Positions 50,086 to 61,994 of a DNA stretch of 64,000 nucleotides are shown in pieces. A model generated the notes under the pieces. The model had not been told where the DNA came from and searched no databases. It worked only from the letters and a program-made list of their open reading frames with translations. Position 1 is the stretch's first letter, and each line of letters begins with the position of its first letter. Origin of the DNA: Propionicicella superfundia DSM 22317 (GTDB lineage: Bacteria > Actinomycetota > Actinomycetes > Propionibacteriales > Propionibacteriaceae); NCBI RefSeq assembly GCF_000423465.1, contig NZ_KE384021.1:155290-219289 (forward strand), given 5' to 3'. The position numbers were made by a program, and so were the translations under genes.

Positions 50086-50141
50086 GACTCACCCTTCCGA
50101 GTCAGTCTTGTCCTGAGCGGGTACTGCTCCCTCGTCCGCCG
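50086..50141 (-). promoter_or_regulatory. Guanidine-III (ykkC-III) riboswitch
   Basis: On the minus strand the leader contains, in order, GGACGAGG (50137-50130), GTACCCG (50124-50118) and TCAGGACAAGAC (50116-50105), which are the conserved segments of the ykkC-III class. A short stem GACTC/GAGTC (50103-50099 with 50090-50086) then encloses the ribosome binding site GGAAGG directly before the SMR start codon, so control is likely translational. A TAGAAT box at 50170-50165 is a probable -10 element. Confidence 0.93.
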
Positions 50142-50357
50142 AGCCGATCCGGCCCGCGTGTCGGATTCTACCCCGAACGTGAGCCGGTCCGCCCCACAGC
50201 ACGGCTCGGCCCGAGAACGCGCTCCGGCTCATCGACGCGTCCCCGCGTGACCACCGTCACAGGGTCGGCCGGGGCTGTGCGCGCCCCTCGACCACGCGGT
50301 ACCCGCGGGCGACCGCGGGCACCGATCCGCGGATCGAGGAACGGGCGGATCGGAGGA

Positions 50358-53023: not shown

Positions 53024-53992
53024 TCAGCCGCCAGGGCGGCTCGGCCGCGTCGCCGGGCCGGGCCTCTCGGTGCGCCGCAGCCGTGTGCGATGGTCGGCGG
53101 CGGTCGTTCCCCGGACTCTGAGGAAGTGGCGGCGCAGCAGGTCCGTGCTGGTGAACCCTGACAGGTCGGCGACGGTGACGAGGGGCAGGCCGGGCTCGGC
53201 CTCCAGGAGCGCCGCGGCCGTGGCGACACGGTGATCCGCGATCCGGGTCGCGACGTCGACCCCGTGCTGGGAGAGAAGACGGTACAGGTGCCGAACGCTC
53301 AGGTTCAGCGCCTGCGCGATGGTCGTCACGCCGAAGCCGCTGTCCTTGTGCCCGGCGGCGATCAACCGGTCGATCCTCGCGCCGAGGTCGTCGTCGCGCG
53401 GCCGAGGATCAGGCCCAGCGGGTGTCATTCGGGCAGTGACGGAGCCGGTGGCCAGGTCGAGGGCGACGCGTTCCTCCAGGTCTCGCAGCGGCTCGCCGGA
53501 CATGGAGGCGGCGCGGACCAGTTCGTGGAGGGCGCGTTCGACGGGTGTCGACCGCCCGAGCGGGTCGATCGTCGTGCGGAGCGCGCCGGATGTGGCGGTG
53601 TCGATGCGATCCAGGGGGACGATCAGCACGGAGAGGTCGGCACCACGGCGGGCTTCGATGCGGAGGGGACGCGAGGTCGTGACCAGCGCCAGCGCTCCGG
53701 GGTGAACCGCCATCGTGCCGTGGGGATCCTGTCGGAGGTCGAGTGTTCCGGCCGCGCAGGCGAGTGCGACGAAGGCCGTCTTGGTGCCCGGCCCGTAGTC
53801 GAGCGTCATGGGTGTGCAGGACACTCGGGCGATGCGCAGCAGGCGGGAGTGGTTGGTCCGGGACCGGACGATCGGACGCGCGGGGTCCGTCGCGGCGAGG
53901 CTCGCTCCTGTGAAGAGCCGGGACATCTGCGCGAGAGCCTCGCGGCCGTGGTGGACCTGACCGAAGAGTGGAATGTCGCAAGGGTGGGGCAT
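53024..53992 (-). CDS. AraC-family transcription regulator
   Basis: A 322-aa regulator with an N-terminal AraC-binding-like domain (ARVSCTPMTLDYGPGTKTAFV) and a C-terminal pair of helix-turn-helix motifs (GVTTIAQALNLSVRHLYRLL; VTVADLSGFTSTDLLRRHFLR). The start is uncertain. The ATG at 53992 (MPHPCDIPLFG) lies downstream of a TAGAGT box near 54040 and is preferred; in-frame ATGs at 54058 and 54073 exist. It is adjacent to the ABC/peptide operon on the same strand and might control it; no direct evidence is visible. Confidence 0.78.
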   Translation of the reverse strand: MPHPCDIPLFGQVHHGREALAQMSRLFTGASLAATDPARPIVRSRTNHSRLLRIARVSCTPMTLDYGPGTKTAFVALACAAGTLDLRQDPHGTMAVHPGALALVTTSRPLRIEARRGADLSVLIVPLDRIDTATSGALRTTIDPLGRSTPVERALHELVRAASMSGEPLRDLEERVALDLATGSVTARMTPAGPDPRPRDDDLGARIDRLIAAGHKDSGFGVTTIAQALNLSVRHLYRLLSQHGVDVATRIADHRVATAAALLEAEPGLPLVTVADLSGFTSTDLLRRHFLRVRGTTAADHRTRLRRTERPGPATRPSRPGG

Positions 53993-54148
53993 GAGGTGAG
54001 GGGTTGTCGAGGTGCGGGCGCCGGGGCGTGGCAGAACTCTAGCGTGGCGGCGGTTCATCGTCCCGACCGCCAACCGCAGCGTCGCCGGCGCCGGACCTCC
54101 GTGAGCCGCGACGTCCGCCCAGCACGTACCGCGAGACCCAGGTGGCCC

Positions 54149-54271
54149 TCATTCGTCGGGTCTGCGGCCCTGCCTCCACTGCCCCACGGCCTCAACCCCC
54201 GCGAAGAAGGCCAGGCAGGCGACCGTCGGCCACTCGAAGAGATGCTCGTGGGCGCGCAGGTCAGAGTTCAC
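54149..54271 (-). pseudogene. Truncated relative of the 60-aa two-helix membrane proteins
   Basis: A 40-codon frame from a GTG inside the end of the permease gene (VNSDLRAHEHLFEWPTVACL, then FFAGVEAVGQWRQGRRPDE). It matches the C-terminal two-thirds of the proteins at 59944-60126 and 61131-61313 (WPAVAF..FFAGAEAARQWRQ) but lacks their first membrane helix. It is either a decayed copy or a shortened functional version at the end of the ABC operon. Confidence 0.75.
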
Positions 54272-55448
54272 GGATCGCGTCGTCGGGGGGACGGCCGGCG
54301 ACGGCGAGAACCGCGCGCAACCCGCCGACGATCGCTCCGGCCGGCACTCCGACGACGGTCAGGACGACGTGGCTCCAGCCCGGTGAGGGGGTCGCCGGGA
54401 TGGTCACCCCGGCCCATTCCCGGCCCGCCGCGAGCCACGATGTCGCCCAGCACGCACCGAGGCCCAGGGCGACCGCGGTGATTGCCACGGCGGCGGCGAC
54501 GCAGGTCAGCTCGCACAGGTAGAGGCGCACGATGCGCGCTCGCTGCCAGCCGAGTGCGCGCAGCACGCCGACCTCGGATGCTCGTTCCGCCCGTAGGCCG
54601 GATCCGAGGACCGTCCCCGACATCAGGGCGACGATCGCCACGATCACCACGAGCACCGGGCTGGACCAGGAGAGGACGGACAGCCCGGCGGACAGGGACG
54701 GCGCCGCGCCGGCCACGCTCTCGGTCGCGTAGCCGCGCGCCCGGAGCGCTTCCTCCACCGTGGCGACATCGGCGACGGAGGCGACTCTCACGAAGGCCGC
54801 GTCGTAGCCGAGGGCGTCCGGGTCGGTGCCGGCGGGCGACCGCGCGGTGAGCACGGCGCTGACCAGGCCGTTGGTCGTGTACACGGCCTCCGCTCCGGCA
54901 TAGCCGGGCAGGCTGTTGTCGAAGGTGCCGACCACCGTGACGCGGAAGGCCGTCGGATCGCGGCCGGCGGCCGTGACCCGGAACTCGTGGACGGTCCCCA
55001 GCGGGAGCGATCCCGCCGCGGCGTCGGGAACGAGGATCTCGTCGTCGCGGATCGGAGCGACGCCGGCGACGATGTCGGGGTCGAGCGCGGCCACCTGCGG
55101 GGTGAGCCACATCCGCCGGGCGGGCTCACCGATGTCGATCCGGATCTGCGCGAACGGGGTCACGTCGGCGACGGCGGGGATGCCCCGGAGCGCAGGGAGA
55201 TCCCCCGCGACGACCGGACGGCCCGCTCCGTTGCTGCCCGACCCGACCCGGATGGTCGTCAGCCCCGGATCGTGGTTCAACCGGCGGGCCTCGTCCGACA
55301 GGGAAGATGCCAGGAGCGACCCGACAAGGATCGACGCGGCACTCAGCAGCGCCGTGGCCACGGCCCATGCGGCGTGTCGTCGCAGGGTGCGGGGCATCAC
55401 GGCTCGGATCATCGTCAGGTCGATGGGCAGCGTCCCGGCCGGTGCCAC
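54261..55448 (-). CDS. FtsX-like ABC permease, second in operon
   Basis: A 395-aa MacB/FtsX-type permease: one N-terminal membrane helix (AWAVATALLSAASILVGSLL), an extracytoplasmic domain of about 220 residues, then three membrane helices containing RASEVGVLRALGWQRARIVR, the cytoplasmic coupling loop of the family. It ends PPDDAIREL, nearly the same as the adjacent permease. The start is uncertain: GTG at 55448 aligns with the start of its partner; an ATG at 55412 is possible. It works with the ATPase at 56722-57369, probably as a heterodimer. Confidence 0.85.
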   Translation of the reverse strand: MAPAGTLPIDLTMIRAVMPRTLRRHAAWAVATALLSAASILVGSLLASSLSDEARRLNHDPGLTTIRVGSGSNGAGRPVVAGDLPALRGIPAVADVTPFAQIRIDIGEPARRMWLTPQVAALDPDIVAGVAPIRDDEILVPDAAAGSLPLGTVHEFRVTAAGRDPTAFRVTVVGTFDNSLPGYAGAEAVYTTNGLVSAVLTARSPAGTDPDALGYDAAFVRVASVADVATVEEALRARGYATESVAGAAPSLSAGLSVLSWSSPVLVVIVAIVALMSGTVLGSGLRAERASEVGVLRALGWQRARIVRLYLCELTCVAAAVAITAVALGLGACWATSWLAAGREWAGVTIPATPSPGWSHVVLTVVGVPAGAIVGGLRAVLAVAGRPPDDAIREL

Positions 55449-55504
55449 GTGCTGGCGGGGAATGGCCCGGCGAGGGCGGGGCCGCCCTCGACCCGGCCCA
55501 TGCC

Positions 55505-56725
55505 TCACAGTTCTCGCAACGCGTCGTCGGGGGGTAGCGAGACGAGTCGTCGCACCGCCGGGGCGGCGCCGAGGCACAGGCTCGCGGGGATCCCGGCGAG
55601 CACGCCGACAAGCCAGGGCCAGGGCGGGAGCGGGAAGGTGGTCAGCCGAACGCCGAGCGTCTCGGCGCCGTCCTTCCAGAACCACGCGACGGCGCCGACG
55701 CCGAGGGCGATCACGATCGCACCCAGCGCGCAGCCGAGGCCCACGATGGCCAGTTCACCGAGGAGCAGTCTGGTCGTGCGGCCGCGCGACCAGCCGACGG
55801 CCCGCAGCGTGCCGATCTCCGCGGCCCGCTCGGCGACGGCCGCCGATCCGACCATGGAGCCCAGGCCGATGGCGACCACGCCGGCGACCAGGACCAGCGC
55901 CCAGATGAGCACGTTCAGCAAGGTCATCGCACGCGGTGCCTCGTCGGCCATCGAGGCCAGGCTGGTGGCCGCGTAGCCCATGCTCGTCAGCCGCGACGTG
56001 AGCTCGGGCACGGCGTCGACCGAGCTGGCCTCCACGAACGCCTCGGGGTACTCGTAGGCGTCGCTGTCGAAGTCGTCCGGTTCGCTCCCGGTCGCGGCGG
56101 CGGCGAGGATCTCGAGCAGCGCGCTCGTGCCGTAGGCCGGGGCATTGACCTCGAACGGCGACGGCGCGATGTCGAAGACGCCCACCACCGTGACGCTGCG
56201 TTCTCGTGGCTCGCCGGTTCCCGGCCCCGTCATGAACGTGTACTGGATCTCCATCCTCGTGCCGACCAGCGGGGTGTAGTCGGTGCCGTCCAGCTCCGCC
56301 GGGATCAGGACTTCGTCGGCGGCCACCGGCTCTCGGCCCACGGTGACCTCCGGCTGGATCGCCGGCAGGCGAAGGGACAGGAACCACGGAACGCAGCCGG
56401 TGTCCGCCGGGCACAGCGACTCGTCCACAGAGGTGAACCCGTACCGGCCCGAAGGGCGTACAGCCGCCACCCCGGGCTCCGAGGCGAGCATGGCGAGATC
56501 CCGTCCCCGCAGGGGCCGCTCCTCGCCGCGCGGCGAGGCTGGAAGCAGGTAGATCAGCTTCAGCGCATCCTCGCCCGAGCTCACGGTCTGCCGGGTGACC
56601 ACCTGGGCGGCCAGCCCGCCCAGCCCGGCGAGCAGCCCCGCCACCACCGTCAGGACGACCACCGCGGCGAACCGGCGCGTGCGCAGCAGGGCGGCGCCGC
56701 GCAGCACCATGGTGAGGTCGATCAC
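55505..56725 (-). CDS. FtsX-like ABC permease, first in operon
   Basis: A 406-aa MacB/FtsX-type permease with the same layout as its neighbour: N-terminal helix (FAAVVVLTVVAGLLAGLGGL), a large extracytoplasmic domain with a Cys pair (SLCPADTGCVPWF), then three helices with RAAEIGTLRAVGWSRGRTTR. The GTG start overlaps the ATPase stop (GTGA) and has GGGAG six bases upstream. Such permeases do not usually import; they extrude or extract substrates from the membrane or periphery. A decayed copy of its 3' end lies at 59876-59943. Confidence 0.88.
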   Translation of the reverse strand: MIDLTMVLRGAALLRTRRFAAVVVLTVVAGLLAGLGGLAAQVVTRQTVSSGEDALKLIYLLPASPRGEERPLRGRDLAMLASEPGVAAVRPSGRYGFTSVDESLCPADTGCVPWFLSLRLPAIQPEVTVGREPVAADEVLIPAELDGTDYTPLVGTRMEIQYTFMTGPGTGEPRERSVTVVGVFDIAPSPFEVNAPAYGTSALLEILAAAATGSEPDDFDSDAYEYPEAFVEASSVDAVPELTSRLTSMGYAATSLASMADEAPRAMTLLNVLIWALVLVAGVVAIGLGSMVGSAAVAERAAEIGTLRAVGWSRGRTTRLLLGELAIVGLGCALGAIVIALGVGAVAWFWKDGAETLGVRLTTFPLPPWPWLVGVLAGIPASLCLGAAPAVRRLVSLPPDDALREL

Positions 56726-57369
56726 GCCAGGCTCCCTTCGGTCACCAGCAGGCGACGGGTCGCGATGCGCTCGACCCGCGGGTCGTGCGAGGCGATGATC
56801 ACGGCTGCGCCCTCGGCGGCCGCCTCGGCGAGCCTGTCGAGGATCGCCTCGGCGTTCGGCCCGTCCAGGCCGGAGACCGGCTCGTCGGCCAGCACCAGGC
56901 CGGGCTTGTTCACCAGGGCCCGCAGCGCGGCGACGCGTTGCTGCTGGCCGCCGGAGAGCAGCTTGGCGCGGTCGCGGAGATGCTCGCCGAGCCCGAAGGA
57001 GACCAGGCCCGCCGCGATCGCCTCACGATCGTCGACCAGCGCCGCGACGCGGAGGTTCTCGACGGAGGTGAGCTCGGGCAGCAGCCGGTGCGACTGGAAC
57101 ACCATCCCGATCCTCCGCGCGCGGAGCCGGGTGCGTTCCCGGTCACCCAGCGCGGTGGTGTCCACGCCATCCACCAGCACTCGGCCCTCCGTGGGCTGTG
57201 TGAGCAGCCCGCAGAGGTTGATCAGGGTGCTCTTGCCGGCGCCGGAGGCGCCGTCCAGATGCACGATCTCGCCGCCGCCGACCGAGACGGAGGCGTCGTG
57301 GATGACCTCGCGCTCCCCGGCCGCCGTCGGATACGCCTTGCGGACCCCGACCAGTTCGATCATGCTCAT
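56722..57369 (-). CDS. MacB/LolD-like ABC ATPase
   Basis: A 215-aa ATPase: Walker A GASGAGKST, Q-loop MVFQSHRLLPELTS, signature [15 protein letters not shown], Walker B LVLADEPVSGLD and switch His in IASHDPR. This length and the SHRLLPELT segment fit the LolD/MacB subclass that pairs with FtsX-like permeases. The ATG at 57369 has GAGAGG upstream and overlaps the lipoprotein gene stop by four bases (ATGA). It is the third gene of a five-gene operon. Confidence 0.92.
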   Translation of the reverse strand: MSMIELVGVRKAYPTAAGEREVIHDASVSVGGGEIVHLDGASGAGKSTLINLCGLLTQPTEGRVLVDGVDTTALGDRERTRLRARRIGMVFQSHRLLPELTSVENLRVAALVDDREAIAAGLVSFGLGEHLRDRAKLLSGGQQQRVAALRALVNKPGLVLADEPVSGLDGPNAEAILDRLAEAAAEGAAVIIASHDPRVERIATRRLLVTEGSLA

Positions 57370-58895
57370 ATGGGCCTCTCGAAGCTCGAGTGTCTGGCCA
57401 GCAGGCTTGCCTGGAAGCTGCAGCGCGAACCGCCATCGCCGGTGCTGATGCGATACACGTAGTCGGACAATCCGCACCCACGCAGCCCGGCGAGCCCCTC
57501 CTCGATGCGAATCTGATCGGTGTCGGCGATCGTGACGGCGTGCACGGAGGGAAGAGCCGCGACCGCACGGTAGTAGCCGATCGTCGCCTCCGGCCGGAGC
57601 GCCTGTTCGACCGCCCGGTGCTGTGCGTTCGGCAGGGCGGCGGCGATGGCGTCGTCGTTCGCGAACCGCTCGGAGACCGTGAGGAGGAAGATCGCCGCGT
57701 CGGGGTCGAGGTCGTCCTCCCTGGGCAGCTCCAGGGTGGGGAGCTCGATGACGCCCGACAGGAGCCGAAGGGCGGCGACACGATCTGCGAGCCACGGCGC
57801 GTCGGCGACGGGATGCGTGCCCGCGAGCCCAGCGCGCGCGTGTGCGATCTCGTCGCCGAACTCGTCCGTCCCGACGCCCGAGAGCTTCAGGATCGCCAGA
57901 GTCTGCAGTCGCGTCGTCCGGTTCTCCTCGGTGGGCTCGTCGGCGTGGAGCTCGCTCTTCAACCGATCGAGGACGTCCCGCTCCACCAGGCCGGCGGCAT
58001 TCGGATCGAGCAGATAGCTGACGGTGAAGGTGGTGGCCACCGAGCCCAAGGCGACCGGGCGTTGCAGGACGAATCCCTTCTCGCCGGCACCGGCAAGGCA
58101 CCGCTCCCGGGCTTCGGCTCCCATTCGGTCCTGTTTCAGGAGCGACAGGGCATCGATCGCCGCCATCGTCTCCACCGTGCAGCCCGGTGCGGCGAGCGTC
58201 GAGGCCAGGATCGCTCCAAGGCGGGCGACCTCGTCGCCCGACTCGGGCCGCGTCAACGCTACGTAGCCGAGCGTCTCGAAGGCCGGATCGGCCGTATCGG
58301 CGGTGGGCGGCGAGAGCCGCACCTCGGACGGCGGCAGGTCGAGGAGACCGCGTGCCAGGCCCAGCCGCCATGCCGAGTACCACGAGGACGTCTCGGTGAT
58401 CGACGCCACGAGCCGCGTGCCCGCGGCGAGTTCGGGTTGGCCGGCGGCGGTGGTCCGGCTGGCCGCGTCCGCCCAGGCCCAGAGCATGACCGCGTCGGCA
58501 TTCGCGTCGTCGGTGCGCTCCGGCGGCGAGGGGAGGACGTGCCCAGCGGGAAGGGCGGCCTTGGCGGACGGAGTCGCACCCGCCACCCGGAGCAACGACC
58601 AGGTGAACCACGGCTCTGACAGCGTGCCTCGCGCCACGTCCAGATCGACCTCGTCGGGGATCGGTCGTGGTGCCGACAGCGCGAGCATGTCGATCGCGAC
58701 CGCGGTGAGATACAGGTCGGGGGACTGCGGGGTGTCGGCCTCGGGGGCGCGTACCAGCCCGTCGGCGCCGATGAGGGAGCTCGCCGCCGTGCGAATCGAT
58801 TCGTCTGCGGACTGTGGCCGGGTGGAGCACCCGGCCACAGTCATCGCGACGACCATCGCGATGGCGACGGCCGTGCAGCCGAGATCTCGTGCCAT
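57366..58895 (-). CDS. Lipoprotein of unknown function in the ABC/peptide operon
   Basis: A 509-aa lipoprotein; the signal peptide ends in VAGC. The mature part is almost wholly helical by composition, with repeated Leu/Ala-rich segments such as ALSLLKQDRMGAEARERC and TLAILKLSGVGTDEF. That would suit an alpha/alpha-toroid or similar repeat fold, but I recognise no family. Few Cys occur, several in the C-terminal half. It starts nine bases after the secreted 155-aa protein gene and overlaps the ATPase start. It may bind the secreted product at the outer face of the membrane, for export, maturation or self-protection. Confidence 0.75.
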   Translation of the reverse strand: MARDLGCTAVAIAMVVAMTVAGCSTRPQSADESIRTAASSLIGADGLVRAPEADTPQSPDLYLTAVAIDMLALSAPRPIPDEVDLDVARGTLSEPWFTWSLLRVAGATPSAKAALPAGHVLPSPPERTDDANADAVMLWAWADAASRTTAAGQPELAAGTRLVASITETSSWYSAWRLGLARGLLDLPPSEVRLSPPTADTADPAFETLGYVALTRPESGDEVARLGAILASTLAAPGCTVETMAAIDALSLLKQDRMGAEARERCLAGAGEKGFVLQRPVALGSVATTFTVSYLLDPNAAGLVERDVLDRLKSELHADEPTEENRTTRLQTLAILKLSGVGTDEFGDEIAHARAGLAGTHPVADAPWLADRVAALRLLSGVIELPTLELPREDDLDPDAAIFLLTVSERFANDDAIAAALPNAQHRAVEQALRPEATIGYYRAVAALPSVHAVTIADTDQIRIEEGLAGLRGCGLSDYVYRISTGDGGSRCSFQASLLARHSSFERPI

Positions 58896-58904
58896 CGGAG
58901 CAGG

Positions 58905-59372
58905 TCAGACCGAGACGCTGGCGCTACGCATCTGCCCGTTGTACATCGCTGTCCCCGAGACGGTCATGCCCAGATAGATCGTGGACCAGCTCATGCACAC
59001 GTTTCCGGCCAGGTAGGAATTCTTCTGCCCCTTCGTGTTGCGCAGCGACAAGGACTTGTAGCTGGAGCTGCCGCTCGCGCTCGCGCTGGCGCCGCCCACG
59101 CTGACGCTCGCGCCCAGGCCGATCGCCGAGAAGGCCGTGTAGTTCTCCAGCCACTTCGGCTTCTTGGTGATGGTCGCGAGGCTGTCCCACTTCCCACAGC
59201 CATGGATGTCGGAGAAGTAGGGAAGACCGAGCCTTGCCTTCAGGGTGGCTCCGTCCCAACTCACCTTCCCGCTCCACTTGTTGCGCGCCTCCGCCGATGG
59301 GGCCACGCCGAGCGCCAGGGCGCTGGCGAGCAGCACGGACGCGAGGATCCTGGTCGGATGGGTGATCTTCAT
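58905..59372 (-). CDS. Secreted 155-aa protein, payload 1 of the cassette family
   Basis: A 155-aa protein with a Sec signal peptide (MKITHPTRILASVLLASALA, cleavage near SAEARNKW). The mature part of about 125 residues has an aromatic, basic N-terminal half (KWSGKVSWDG, GLPYFSDIHGCGKWDS), a Gly/Ala/Ser stretch (SVSVGGASASASGSSS) and a C-terminal half with VCMSWSTIYLGM. It has two Cys. I do not recognise the family. The first residues are nearly identical to those of the precursor at 60123-60461, and its leader matches two others. AAGGAG precedes the ATG. It heads the ABC operon. A bacteriocin-like role is inferred. Confidence 0.78.
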   Translation of the reverse strand: MKITHPTRILASVLLASALALGVAPSAEARNKWSGKVSWDGATLKARLGLPYFSDIHGCGKWDSLATITKKPKWLENYTAFSAIGLGASVSVGGASASASGSSSYKSLSLRNTKGQKNSYLAGNVCMSWSTIYLGMTVSGTAMYNGQMRSASVSV

Positions 59373-59760
59373 CGGTCTCCTTGGATCGAGGATGGATGTT
59401 CGTAACGGCCGTCGGCGGCAGCCAAACAGGCTTTCGCCGGGCGGGCAACCGGTCCCCGGCCGCCGGAATCGCCCGTTCGGTCGCGAATCGTGTTACCGGC
59501 CGGCCAAGCGATGGGCGCGGTCGCCCGGCGGCCCGTATCCCTTGGAGGGTGGGGATGTCCGCCGTCGGCGACGCCCGCGTCCCGGTGACAAGGGGACTTG
59601 CTCCGAGCGGATCGTGCGCCGACCCGCCGGGCCGGACGACCCGGGCCGACATGGCCCGAGCGGGGCCACGGTGACCGCCGGGCCGGCCCGGTGACCGGCC
59701 CGCGCCGCAAACTCGTCACAAAATGACGTCCCGATGTCACAAGACGACGTGCGACCCCGA
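59373..59760 (-). promoter_or_regulatory. Conserved leader, copy 1
   Basis: Upstream region of the 155-aa protein gene, alike in order to the leaders at 60462-60845 and 61493-61880. It has a 28-bp motif at 59715-59742 (two TTGTGAC elements on the minus strand), 343 bases from the start codon. It also has a conserved block around 59400-59460 (CCAAACAGGC, GCCGGGCGGGCAACCGG on the plus strand) just before the ribosome binding site. It probably contains promoter and long leader. Confidence 0.75.
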
Positions 59761-59875
59761 CGGTTCCCGAGACACTCGATGCCTCCGAGGCAGGGAGTTG
59801 CTGCGCGAGCCGGTCCGGGTGGACGCAAGCACCGGATCATCGCCAGGCGGATGGCAGCCTTGCGGCTCTCGCAGG

Positions 59876-59943
59876 GCATCGCCGGGCCACGGGACGAGTC
59901 GTCGCACCACTGCGGCCGCGCCCAGGCAGAGACTCGCGCCCCC
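59876..59943 (-). pseudogene. Remnant of an FtsX-like permease 3' end
   Basis: On the minus strand the sequence reads roughly SLCLGAAAVVRRLV followed by DALRE, matching the last about 25 codons of the permease at 55505-56725 (SLCLGAAPAVRRLV, DDALREL). It lies directly after the stop of the 60-aa membrane protein gene. The rest of the permease gene is gone. Confidence 0.7.
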
Positions 59944-60126
59944 TCACTCGTCCCGCTTGCGGTCCTGTCTCCATTGCCGCGCGGCCTCAGCGCCGGCGAA
60001 AAAGGCCATGAACGCGACCGCCGGCCACTCGACGAGGCGCTCGTAGAGGTCCATCGACATGAACATCCCGACGGCGAGTCCGGTCGTCGCGGAAGCGGCA
60101 AGCCGCCCGAGCGCCCGGCCGGTCAT
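59944..60126 (-). CDS. 60-aa two-helix membrane protein, candidate immunity protein A
   Basis: A 60-aa protein (MTGRALGRLAAS) with two short membrane helices (ASATTGLAVGMFMSM and WPAVAFMAFFAGAEA) and a strongly basic, charged C-terminus (RQWRQDRKRDE). The ATG overlaps the stop of the secreted-precursor gene (ATGA), so its translation is coupled to the precursor. It aligns over its whole length with the protein at 61131-61313. Small two-helix proteins cotranslated with a secreted peptide are often self-protection proteins; that role is inferred. Confidence 0.8.
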   Translation of the reverse strand: MTGRALGRLAASATTGLAVGMFMSMDLYERLVEWPAVAFMAFFAGAEAARQWRQDRKRDE

Positions 60127-60461
60127 CGACAGGCCACCTGCGTGGACCCCATGAACAACGCCATGGTGATGAGAGCGGTGAGCACCGGATGGGGGCAGGC
60201 ATCTCTCACGCATTGTCCGGCGGCCGCCGTGGGCGTCGATGCGTCTTTCAGGGCCGTTGCCGAGCGGACGCCTGTCTCGGTTGCCTCGACGACGACGCTC
60301 GTGTCGGCACGCGCCCCGTGCACCTCCGAGGTGGAGCGATCGGCCTGACTCGACTCGTCCGCAAGGGCGAGTTGCGCACTTCCGCCGACGCCGACGCCGA
60401 GCGCCAGGGCGCAGGCGGGTGGCGCGGACGCGAGGATTCTGATCGGTCGGGTGATCTTCAT
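60123..60461 (-). CDS. Secreted peptide precursor, payload 2 (112 aa)
   Basis: A 112-aa precursor. Its signal peptide (MKITRPIRILAS) is nearly the same as that of the 155-aa protein. A hydrophilic spacer of about 50 residues follows, then a C-terminal segment AAAGQCVRDACPHPVLTALI, TMALFMGSTQVACR. That segment matches the whole mature part of the precursor at 61310-61492. The conserved pattern is CVR near its start, PHPV, TMALFM and a final CR, so a two-Cys, hydrophobic peptide of about 32-34 residues may be the active product. The ATG has AAGGAG upstream. Confidence 0.78.
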   Translation of the reverse strand: MKITRPIRILASAPPACALALGVGVGGSAQLALADESSQADRSTSEVHGARADTSVVVEATETGVRSATALKDASTPTAAAGQCVRDACPHPVLTALITMALFMGSTQVACR

Positions 60462-60845
60462 TGGGCTCCTTGGGGCTTGAGGATGGGTGTTCGTCGAACG
60501 GCCGTTGGCGGCAGCCAAACAGGCTTTTGCCGGGCGGGCAACCGGCCCCCGGCCGCCGGAATCGCCCGTTGGGCCTCAGATCGTGTTGCCGGCGGCGAAG
60601 CCAGGTGCGCCGTCGCGCGGCGGTCCGTATCCCTTGGATTGTGGAAACGTCGTCAGTGTCGGCCACCTCATCCGGGTGACAAGGGGACTCGTCTCGGCCG
60701 GCCCGGCCACCGGTTCGTCGGCCGGTTGGGCCTCGGTAGAGACAAGGCGCTGCGGCTGCGGTGACCGCCTCGACCGCTGGAGGAACGGCGCGCGCTGGAA
60801 ACTTGTCACAAAGTGACGCGTCGATGTCACAAATCGCGTGCGAGT
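60462..60845 (-). promoter_or_regulatory. Conserved leader, copy 2
   Basis: Upstream region of the 112-aa precursor gene. The 28-bp motif is at 60805-60832, 344 bases from the start codon. The gene-proximal block (60495-60545) is almost identical to copy 1. A further shared stretch is GTATCCCTTGGA near 60629. Confidence 0.75.
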
Positions 60846-60859
60846 CCCACAGCCCGAGA

Positions 60860-60942
60860 GTATGCGGCTCTCCGCGGTCGACGGGACTATTCCGCAGAGC
60901 AGGCCGATGGCCGCGGAGACGGCAAGCCGCTCGTCGATCGCA
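60860..60942 (-). pseudogene. Remnant of a two-helix membrane protein N-terminal part
   Basis: On the minus strand a segment reads AAIGLLCGIVPSTAESRIL. It matches AAIGLLCGMVPSTTIYHTL of the protein at 61131-61313 and then loses similarity. No start codon or C-terminal half is preserved. Confidence 0.7.
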
Positions 60943-61076
60943 GTCTGGCGGACGTCACCGTTGATGCCTGCGTGGCTGTGCCCTTCCTCCAGCCAGACCG
61001 GATACTCGGGGCCCCCGGACCGACCGCAGAACTCCGTCGATGCCGTCCGGGCCTGCGTAACGGTCATGTCGAGAAG

Positions 61077-61114
61077 GCGCTCAGCAGGGCTGTGGCCACG
61101 GCCCTGCTGAGCGC
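61077..61114. terminator. Perfect hairpin after the second small cassette
   Basis: The arms 61077-61090 and 61101-61114 are perfectly complementary (14 bp, GCGCTCAGCAGGGC), and the 10-base loop itself contains the palindrome GTGGCCAC. It lies 17 bases beyond the stop of the minus-strand membrane protein gene. No T-run. Confidence 0.7.
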
Positions 61115-61130
61115 CCTGGCTCGCCGTCCT

Positions 61131-61313
61131 TCACTCGTCCGGGTTGCGGGCCTTCTTGCGCTGCCGGAGCGCCTCGAGCCCAGCGAAAAAGACCGGAAAG
61201 GCGACTGTAGGCCACGCGACAAGGGTGTGGTAAATGGTGGTCGACGGGACCATGCCGCAAAGCAGGCCGATAGCCGCGTAGATGGCAATCCGTCCGGGAT
61301 TCCAGCCGGTCAT
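61131..61313 (-). CDS. 60-aa two-helix membrane protein, candidate immunity protein B
   Basis: A 60-aa paralogue of the protein at 59944-60126 (MTGWNPGRIAIYAAIGLLCG; WPTVAFPVFFAGLEALRQ; KKARNPDE). Same length, two helices and basic tail. The ATG overlaps the stop of the precursor gene by four bases, the same coupling as in the other cassette. Differences concentrate in the first helix and the loop (PSTTIYHTL against SMDLYERL), as expected if each protein is matched to its own peptide. Confidence 0.8.
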   Translation of the reverse strand: MTGWNPGRIAIYAAIGLLCGMVPSTTIYHTLVAWPTVAFPVFFAGLEALRQRKKARNPDE

Positions 61314-61492
61314 CGGCAGGTCACCGTCGTGTAGCGCATGAATAGTGCCATGGTGACGAGGTTGGTGATCACCGGGTGGGGGAAGGTGATCCTCACGCAT
61401 TTCCCCGCAGCCGCCGCGCTGCCGAATAGCTTGTCGATCGCGACGGCCAGCAGTGTGGACGCGAGGGCTCCGATGAAATGTGTAGCCTTCAT
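61310..61492 (-). CDS. Secreted peptide precursor, payload 3 (60 aa)
   Basis: A 60-aa precursor: a signal-like N-terminus (MKATHFIGALASTLLAVAI), then AAAAGKCVRITFPHPVITNL and VTMALFMRYTTVTCR. It is the shortest member and consists of little more than signal and peptide, which marks the C-terminal about 32 residues as the conserved unit. Two Cys flank that unit (CVR near its start, CR at the end). It has a purine-rich AAGGAGA ribosome binding site. The downstream membrane protein gene is coupled. Confidence 0.78.
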   Translation of the reverse strand: MKATHFIGALASTLLAVAIDKLFGSAAAAGKCVRITFPHPVITNLVTMALFMRYTTVTCR

Positions 61493-61880
61493 CGGTCTCT
61501 CCTTGCCTTGAGGATGGGTGTTCGTCAACGGCCGTTGGCGGCAGCAAAACAGACCGTCGCTCACCGTGCAACCCCCATGTGGCCGCCAGGATTGGCCTTT
61601 CGGATCGCGAAACAGGTTACCGACCGCGCGACATGAGAGCGGTCGTCGCGCAGCCGGCCCGCGTCCTTCGGCCGAAGGGAGTTCTCCGACCTGGTTCCCG
61701 TGACCGCCCTGGCAAGGCGGCGCGCGGCTCGCGGGTGAAGCGCCGGCACGCCGGGTGAGGGGATCCAGATCGAGCGAAGGCGATGCCGCCGCGGTGACCG
61801 CCTCGCTCGCGGGGCGAACGACGCGCGCCGGAAACGTGTCACAAGATGACGTGTCGATGTCACAAAACCGCGTGAGATCC
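61493..61880 (-). promoter_or_regulatory. Conserved leader, copy 3
   Basis: Upstream region of the 60-aa precursor gene. The 28-bp motif is at 61838-61865, 346 bases from the start codon. The gene-proximal block is conserved (AACGGCCGTTGGCGGCAGC near 61530). The middle part is more diverged than between copies 1 and 2. Confidence 0.75.
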
Positions 61881-61898
61881 CCACCGTTCCGGCCCTCC

Positions 61899-61994
61899 CG
61901 AGTCTCTCCGCGCGCAGGGACGGAGCCCCGCCTTTGGGGAGATGGGAGATGCTTCCGACCCTCGGCCGAGTCTCTCCGCGCGCAGGGACGGAGC
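61899..61994. repeat. Perfect 28-bp direct repeat
   Basis: Two identical 28-bp copies, 61899-61926 and 61967-61994 (beginning CGAGTCTCTCCGCGCGCAGG), 68 bases apart, just upstream of the third leader. It may mark a duplication or rearrangement boundary. Confidence 0.8.

Follow-up and report, generated by a model that had tools for sequence, protein, structure and literature searches.

The minus strand of Propionicicella superfundia DSM 22317 contig NZ_KE384021.1 carries, between positions 54149 and 61940 of a 64,000-nucleotide (nt) stretch (hereafter the window, meaning the whole of the DNA analysed), three gene cassettes arranged in tandem (Table 1). Cassette A pairs the precursor P60 with the small membrane protein H2, and cassette B pairs P112 with H1. 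Cassette C consists of P155, a lipoprotein, an ATP-binding cassette (ABC) ATPase and two FtsX permeases, with ATGA or GTGA overlaps linking the lipoprotein, ATPase and permease genes. A sequence-only reading of this locus had described three cassettes with payload genes of 155, 112 and 60 amino acids (aa), ATGA overlaps and a dedicated ABC operon, all of which were found as described. Its view that the three are of one kind did not survive, as two systems lie under one promoter type and P155 forms part of a conserved operon of its own. Beyond that description, the locus holds a partial third H gene (H3), a decayed H fragment, a permease scrap and an inverted repeat.

Table 1. Features of the three-cassette locus, with positions in the window.
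Feature	Position	Strand	Description
28-bp element upstream of P60	61838..61865	-	TTGTGACATCGnnnCGTCAnnTTGTGAC, exact copy
P60	61310..61492	-	60 aa; short precursor, tail AGKCVRITF...TVTCR
H2	61131..61313	-	60 aa; basic two-helix membrane protein; predicted immunity protein; ATGA-coupled to P60
Near-perfect inverted repeat 3' of H2	61076..61115		40 nt; possible terminator
Decayed H gene fragment between cassettes A and B	60876..60961	-	resembles the first half of H2 (75.6% over 90 nt)
28-bp element upstream of P112	60805..60832	-	TTGTGACATCGnnnCGTCAnnTTGTGAC, exact copy
P112	60123..60461	-	112 aa; P155-like leader, variable middle, P60-like tail
H1	59944..60126	-	60 aa; ATGA-coupled to P112; predicted immunity protein
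Permease C-terminus scrap directly 3' of H1	59866..59937	-	resembles residues 381-405 of permease 1 (76% over 25 aa, E 7e-5)
Upstream module of cassette C	59373..59800	-	conserved, ~430 bp; alignable copies at 60462-60900 and 61493-61940
28-bp element upstream of P155	59715..59742	-	TTGTGACATCGnnnCGTCAnnTTGTGAC, exact copy
P155	58905..59372	-	155 aa; predicted secreted all-beta protein; first gene of the ABC operon; member of family P
Lipoprotein	57366..58895	-	lipobox VAGC; predicted mostly helical; no Pfam/NCBIfam family; homologues in A11
LolD/MacB-type ABC ATPase	56722..57369	-	PF00005, 100.8 bits
FtsX-type permease 1	55505..56725	-	PF02687, 43.4 bits
FtsX-type permease 2	54261..55508	-	PF02687, 35.9 bits; 33% identity to permease 1
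H3	54149..54271	-	40-aa partial H copy, second helix only; GTG start overlaps the end of permease 2

The repeat units of the cassettes align across 1546 nt at 61.6% identity, with an expectation value (E) of 9e-98, more than chance would give. H3 matches H1 at 64% identity over 33 aa (E 3e-12) and, because H3 and the two decayed scraps are present, the locus appears to be under ongoing duplication and pruning. A further permease-2 scrap after H2 (repeat D17) was dropped as an inverted-repeat coincidence. Each upstream module contains the same 28-bp element, and a search allowing up to three mismatches found just these three sites, all exact and one per cassette, in the 98% of the genome that the sequence covers; a backward control gave zero sites. 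The shared element may act as an operator, through which the three cassettes would form one regulon. Directly downstream of cassette C (53024-54073, minus strand) lies a gene that by eye encodes an AraC-type regulator, a candidate binder of the element.

The leader said to be common to the three payload genes is clearly shared by P155 and P112 (60% identity over 30 aa, E 3e-5), and the resemblance of P60 is only weak (58% over 19 aa, E 0.03), although its N-terminal hydrophobic stretch may be a signal peptide. Likewise, the proposed common two-cysteine tail holds insofar as the tails of P60 and P112 share 66% identity over 35 aa (the two proteins are 55% identical over 44-45 aa), but that of P112 carries three cysteines. 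The C-terminus of P155 looked plausibly homologous to these tails by eye; a profile comparison found no such relation, this being a weak test with only two sequences on one side. Silent changes exceed replacement changes between the P60 and P112 tails, with a ratio of nonsynonymous to synonymous substitution rates (dN/dS) of 0.31 over 33 codons (Fisher p 0.009). The H genes behave similarly, with values of 0.55 for H1/H2 (p 0.034), 0.26 for H1/H3 (p 0.005) and 0.28 for H2/H3 (p 0.003), and silent changes are not in excess in the P155/P112 leader (0.98). For the tails and H genes these ratios give a modest but consistent indication of purifying selection, modest because the genes are short. H1 is less hydrophobic than H2 and falls under the two-helix threshold used, which H2 exceeds.

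P60 had weak matches in four other genomes (E 0.03-0.1) and at a second site in its own genome (E 0.01), and a profile of the H proteins weakly matched frames in 19 other genomes (E 0.002-0.09), those listed being mostly longer than 200 aa. Plasmid sequences gave no match for the lipoprotein, P155, H1 or the P60 tail, and viral contigs held no relative of P (8 stretches), H1 (71) or the tails (71).

Profile scores place P60, most likely as a short relative, with a widespread group of actinobacterial precursors in which a shared N-terminal region (W.KDA.G...YPVVADP) is followed by a variable tail, often with two cysteines, one being terminal or nearly so. A four-sequence profile of these precursors matched 25 of 186 related genomes. 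A profile of 14 tails from the group ranks the P60 frame first among the 782 frames of the window (E 6e-4), and the P60 tail scores 18.4 bits against it, a value that none of 2000 shuffles equalled (best shuffle 11.4). The 14 tails were chosen by the authors for P60-like ends, ten from the 24 loci parsed out of 30 and four read separately. P60 itself lies outside the profile, yet the choice favours it. Two loci (L107 and L108) were left out despite ending near a cysteine, and the remaining parsed loci end in C-termini of other kinds. P112 can be counted with the group only because of its likeness to P60.

A small membrane open reading frame (ORF) follows the precursor in 13 of the 14 tail loci, compared with 129 of 2534 random positions within those loci (5%), and the same layout occurs at 3 of 124 long-ORF ends in the window. 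An ORF qualified as a partner if it encoded 50-130 aa with two hydrophobic stretches and started between -30 and +40 nt from the precursor stop; the limits on distance and hydrophobicity were chosen after the loci had been viewed, and the scan for hydrophobic stretches only roughly replaces a proper membrane predictor. Tail homologues lacking a partner had been named in advance as a finding that would count against the proposal; one of the 14, L085, has no partner within these limits, its nearest small membrane ORF starting 96 nt on. The P60-H2 and P112-H1 pairs share this precursor-then-membrane-protein layout. H1 and H2 are predicted to be immunity proteins because tail-group members so regularly precede a small membrane protein.

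None of four tail members matched a Pfam model, nor did the one compared with NCBIfam. Other tails of the group are recognizable: among five tested, four gave DUF2599 (three above the cut-off) and the fifth was EndoU-like, under the cut-off. DUF2599 (PF10783) thus stands as a C-terminal tail behind the group's N-terminal region at L101, L103, L106 and L114 (L106 just under the cut-off), a position that suggests an effector domain. A Rhodococcus plasmid record annotated TNT resembles the precursor group weakly (E 2e-3). The L085 locus, on a plasmid of Streptomyces sp. NBC_00069 (1958-5405), has its tail-type precursor some 1.1 kb ahead of a gene for a 119-aa protein with a signal-like start, which is followed by an ATPase and a protein of about 710 aa in a bacteriocin-like ABC operon.

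Cassette C has relatives of its own. P155 showed no notable relative in Pfam, NCBIfam, PADLOC, PHROG or PDB sequences, and neither P nor the lipoprotein reached Pfam or NCBIfam cut-offs. Apart from P155 itself, a search of 146 related genomes turned up a single convincing relative (L029, E 1e-9) and weak matches in 22 other genomes (E 0.002-0.1). Within the taxonomic family, the resulting two-sequence profile reached E<=0.01 in 7 of 198 genomes, of which five besides the window are convincing; the sixth (G085, E 0.004) lies in a stretch without a P-type operon. The two-sequence profile also gave weak hits at G443 (E 0.001), likewise without such an operon in the stretch read, and at G262 (E 0.004). 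A pattern scan of a species-genome collection matched 51 stretches, which reduced to 11 loci: seven from Arthrobacter, one from Pseudarthrobacter and one each from metagenome-assembled genomes of Kocuria, Propionibacteriaceae and Acidimicrobiales. The Propionibacteriaceae copy (L051) is identical in sequence to L042, from a genome in the window's taxonomic family. On plasmids, the L029 lipoprotein had no match and the L029 P protein just two weak ones, in Caballeronia (E 0.09).

Fifteen distinct relative loci (L029, L041, L043, L044 and L047-L057) were compared, and in 12 of them P, a lipoprotein homologue, an ATPase and an FtsX permease follow one another as in the window. The relatives that were read have one permease gene, versus two in the window. 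The contig of L049 stops 36 bases 3' of P; L056 retains just the last part of P and a portion of the lipoprotein gene; at L057 a P gene without a clear start is followed first by a short lipoprotein-like ORF and next by one on the opposite strand; and the lipoprotein gene of L051 is fragmented. A lipobox is present in the lipoproteins of the window, L043, L047 and L055; that of L029 has a cysteine at the same position in an unusual box, and the L044 homologue lacks a lipobox and looks membrane-anchored. The search for lipoprotein relatives scored only three candidates per genome, so that their absence there is weak evidence. Two cysteines of P are invariant across an 11-sequence alignment. Two irregular copies were also seen: at L043 (6040-6480, G562) a start codon by the P leader stands in another frame, and the copy is possibly broken or misassembled, and at L052 (7483-7749) the P operon of Arthrobacter cupressi is closely preceded by a degenerate tandem copy of P whose C-terminus differs.

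The AlphaFold2 model of P155, built on the 11-sequence alignment, is all-beta with nine strands and a mean predicted local distance difference test score (pLDDT) of 75, and Foldseek and VIA-align returned middling matches to several beta-sandwich groups. The lipoprotein model (pLDDT 50) was too poor for use. A role for P155 as a small pore-former was considered, as the top VIA-align rows were of haemolysin or leukocidin type (Z up to 10.4, root-mean-square deviation 2.5-7.5 among the rows shown). It was kept as speculation: adhesin domains and a porin rim reach Z 8-9.3, unmatched models typically attain a best Z of 7-8, and the strand alternation of the middle hairpin is not special. The solved structure of lactococcin 972 was not among the structure-match rows shown for P155, which proves nothing.

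In Arthrobacter, modules comprising a promoter-like repeat, a short leader-like ORF and a small membrane protein stand directly upstream of the P operon, two in L047, two in L049 and one in L050. The membrane protein is the two-helix S47 in all of them but the second in L049, which has S48 (110 aa) instead, and the two S47 copies in L047 are 51% identical. Four comparisons of S47 and S48 gave dN/dS values of 0.27-0.36, as expected under purifying selection; the corresponding ratio for the leader-like ORFs was dropped, as these differ by one codon and had been paired without a gap. S47 is present in four of nine genomes, and four of its five matches adjoin the P operon. The fifth, in A. cupressi (L083, S47 E 5e-11), starts 3 nt past the stop of a tail-type precursor gene. 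The L083 frame has matches in 17 plasmid records, none spanning 80% of it.

Several known systems invite comparison. In bacteriocins of the class II type, the gene for a small cationic two-cysteine peptide is coupled to one for a small membrane immunity protein; unlike them, the locus shows neither a double-glycine leader nor a peptidase-containing ABC exporter, and there is no family match. The ABC genes resemble MacAB, LolCDE and FtsEX in their LolD-like ATPase and FtsX-like permease (PF02687). They differ in that the ATPase falls short of the cut-off in each of the 25 NCBIfam models listed (TIGR02211 157.5 bits, TIGR03608 137.7 bits) and in that a dedicated lipoprotein and a secreted protein are part of the operon. 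Polymorphic toxin and polyimmunity systems include two-transmembrane immunity families, Imm-CdiI and Imm17, according to PMC3482391. As outlined there, they share with the tail group variable C-termini on a common N-terminal part, an adjacent downstream immunity gene and tandem immunity genes; the tails here are by contrast roughly 30-90 residues, membrane-partnered and, for those tested, without a Pfam family, and P60 and P112 lack the N-terminal part.

The closest parallel to cassette C is found in the lactococcin 972 and streptococcin B loci (scbABC, lcn972-orf2-orf3), in which the ABC transporter is assumed to give immunity, according to PMC11796350 and PMC4055356; the former also states that the functions of the B and C genes are unverified experimentally in any lactococcin 972 locus. 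These loci and cassette C both have a short, Sec-type, beta-rich secreted protein followed by ABC genes with an ATPase of the same broad type. P differs in lacking similarity to PF09683, in its greater length (155 aa) and in the additional lipoprotein gene, and the window's permeases are of an FtsX type of about 400 aa versus about 700 aa in lactococcin 972 loci. PF09683 gave no match to P155 at E<=1 and none among 11 P proteins or in the window's genome. It was found in 3 of 168 genomes of the phylum: two of these loci (L074 and L075) comprise a precursor, a 703- or 697-aa protein and an ATPase, without a lipoprotein, and only the ATPase resembles that of the window; the third has no ABC genes in the stretch read. 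By sequence comparison, family P follows a plan similar to lactococcin 972 but is not that family. A literature search on lactococcin 972, actinobacterial bacteriocins and polymorphic toxins, covering the titles and starts of abstracts among the papers listed, did not meet the P operon, which may still have been published.

Elsewhere in the window, a Guanidine-III riboswitch lies at 50096-50159 (minus strand), scoring 42 bits against an Rfam gathering score of 36.

Taken together, we favour, with a probability of roughly 0.6, an antagonism locus of bacteriocin or toxin-immunity type built by tandem duplication. In cassettes A and B, the C-terminal ~32 residues of each small precursor would be the active part, exported via Sec, matured and disulphide-bonded into membrane-active peptides that could kill competitors, with H1 and H2 protecting the producer. 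P60 and P112 would then be very short group members that have lost the usual N-terminal region, and P155 a second, unrelated secreted effector. The lipoprotein and ABC machine most likely work on P at the membrane's outer surface, affording self-protection by removal or release, a proposal made by analogy with the role assumed in lactococcin 972-type operons. The patchy spread of the P operon across genera argues for this reading, as do the Arthrobacter S47 modules upstream of it together with the S47 homologue directly 3' of a tail-type precursor, the purifying selection on tails and H genes, and the cassette-specific 28-bp element. Thus the earlier suggestion of a bacteriocin with matched self-protection is supported in part, by the P60 tail match, the partnered group loci and the other C-terminal domains carried in the wider group, and no evidence was found for the alternative role of a signalling peptide. 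A bolder version would make family P a novel class of all-beta antibacterial proteins, secreted and equipped with lipoprotein-FtsX self-protection, that are co-regulated with the tail peptides as a multi-component weapon; this strikes us as rather improbable.

Several observations weigh against an antagonism locus. The P112 tail alone scores 3.6 bits against the group profile, equalled by 431 of 2000 shuffles, and thus has no match there; a search of the window's genome for the N-terminal region of the group gave nothing at E<=0.01. The P60 leader makes a weak signal peptide, and the tail profile extends into it, which leaves export of P60 uncertain. No homology was found between H1/H2 and S47, nor between H1/H2 and the 14 tail-group partners (best E 0.03), a dissimilarity that might be expected if partners change fast. 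H1 also falls short of the two-helix threshold applied to the 14 loci. The A. cupressi precursor next to S47 (L083, 3200-4361) is split, with its N-terminal part and tail in different frames, and may be broken or misassembled. H3 and the scraps are signs of decay in progress. Finally, the strong constraint on P (dN/dS 0.07 between two Arthrobacter strains, with 0.22 for the lipoprotein), unlike that of many fast-changing toxins, counts somewhat against such a role.

These last ratios speak for a rival reading, in which the P155-lipoprotein-ATPase-FtsX operon would be no weapon but an envelope or adhesion/signalling system, its secreted beta-protein being released or sensed by way of a MacB/FtsX-type machine, and the small cassettes would merely borrow its promoter. 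The ATPase is closest to LolD, DevA and FtsE models, and the structural look-alikes of P155 include the adhesin domains ClfA and FnBPA (Z 8-9). An envelope function sits poorly, however, with a P operon so thinly scattered over the family's genomes, with the transposase-like genes (identified by eye) that adjoin some P copies, and with the degenerate tandem P copy and toxin-immunity-like modules nearby; we regard it as unlikely, if deserving of attention. The possibility that cassettes A and B are decaying leftovers, with the H proteins serving as orphan immunity against other strains and P60 and P112 being dead precursors, is doubtful to a comparable degree. It would account for the H and permease scraps and for the missing N-terminal region; it fits the constraint on Arthrobacter S47 (dN/dS 0.34-0.36) beside leader-like ORFs that look decayed by eye, and polyimmunity loci have been described (PMC3482391). 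Against it, the P60/P112 tails bear the mark of selection reported above, both ORFs are intact and their ATGA overlaps have been retained. That the locus should be counted broadly with the lactococcin 972 class, P being a remote homologue, is very unlikely, since the Sec-type all-beta protein ahead of an ABC transporter and a TIGR03608 score well short of its cut-off (254.85) are outweighed by the failure of all 11 P proteins to match PF09683 and by the different build of true PF09683 loci.

If the locus is indeed one of antagonism, two groups would be added to those known in actinobacteria, both unmodelled by the family libraries searched. The P-lipoprotein-FtsX operon would parallel the lactococcin 972 loci, and the second group would comprise secreted precursors, widespread and short-tailed, each coupled to a small membrane partner. 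The two groups could then enter the libraries used in mining for bacteriocins and immunity proteins.

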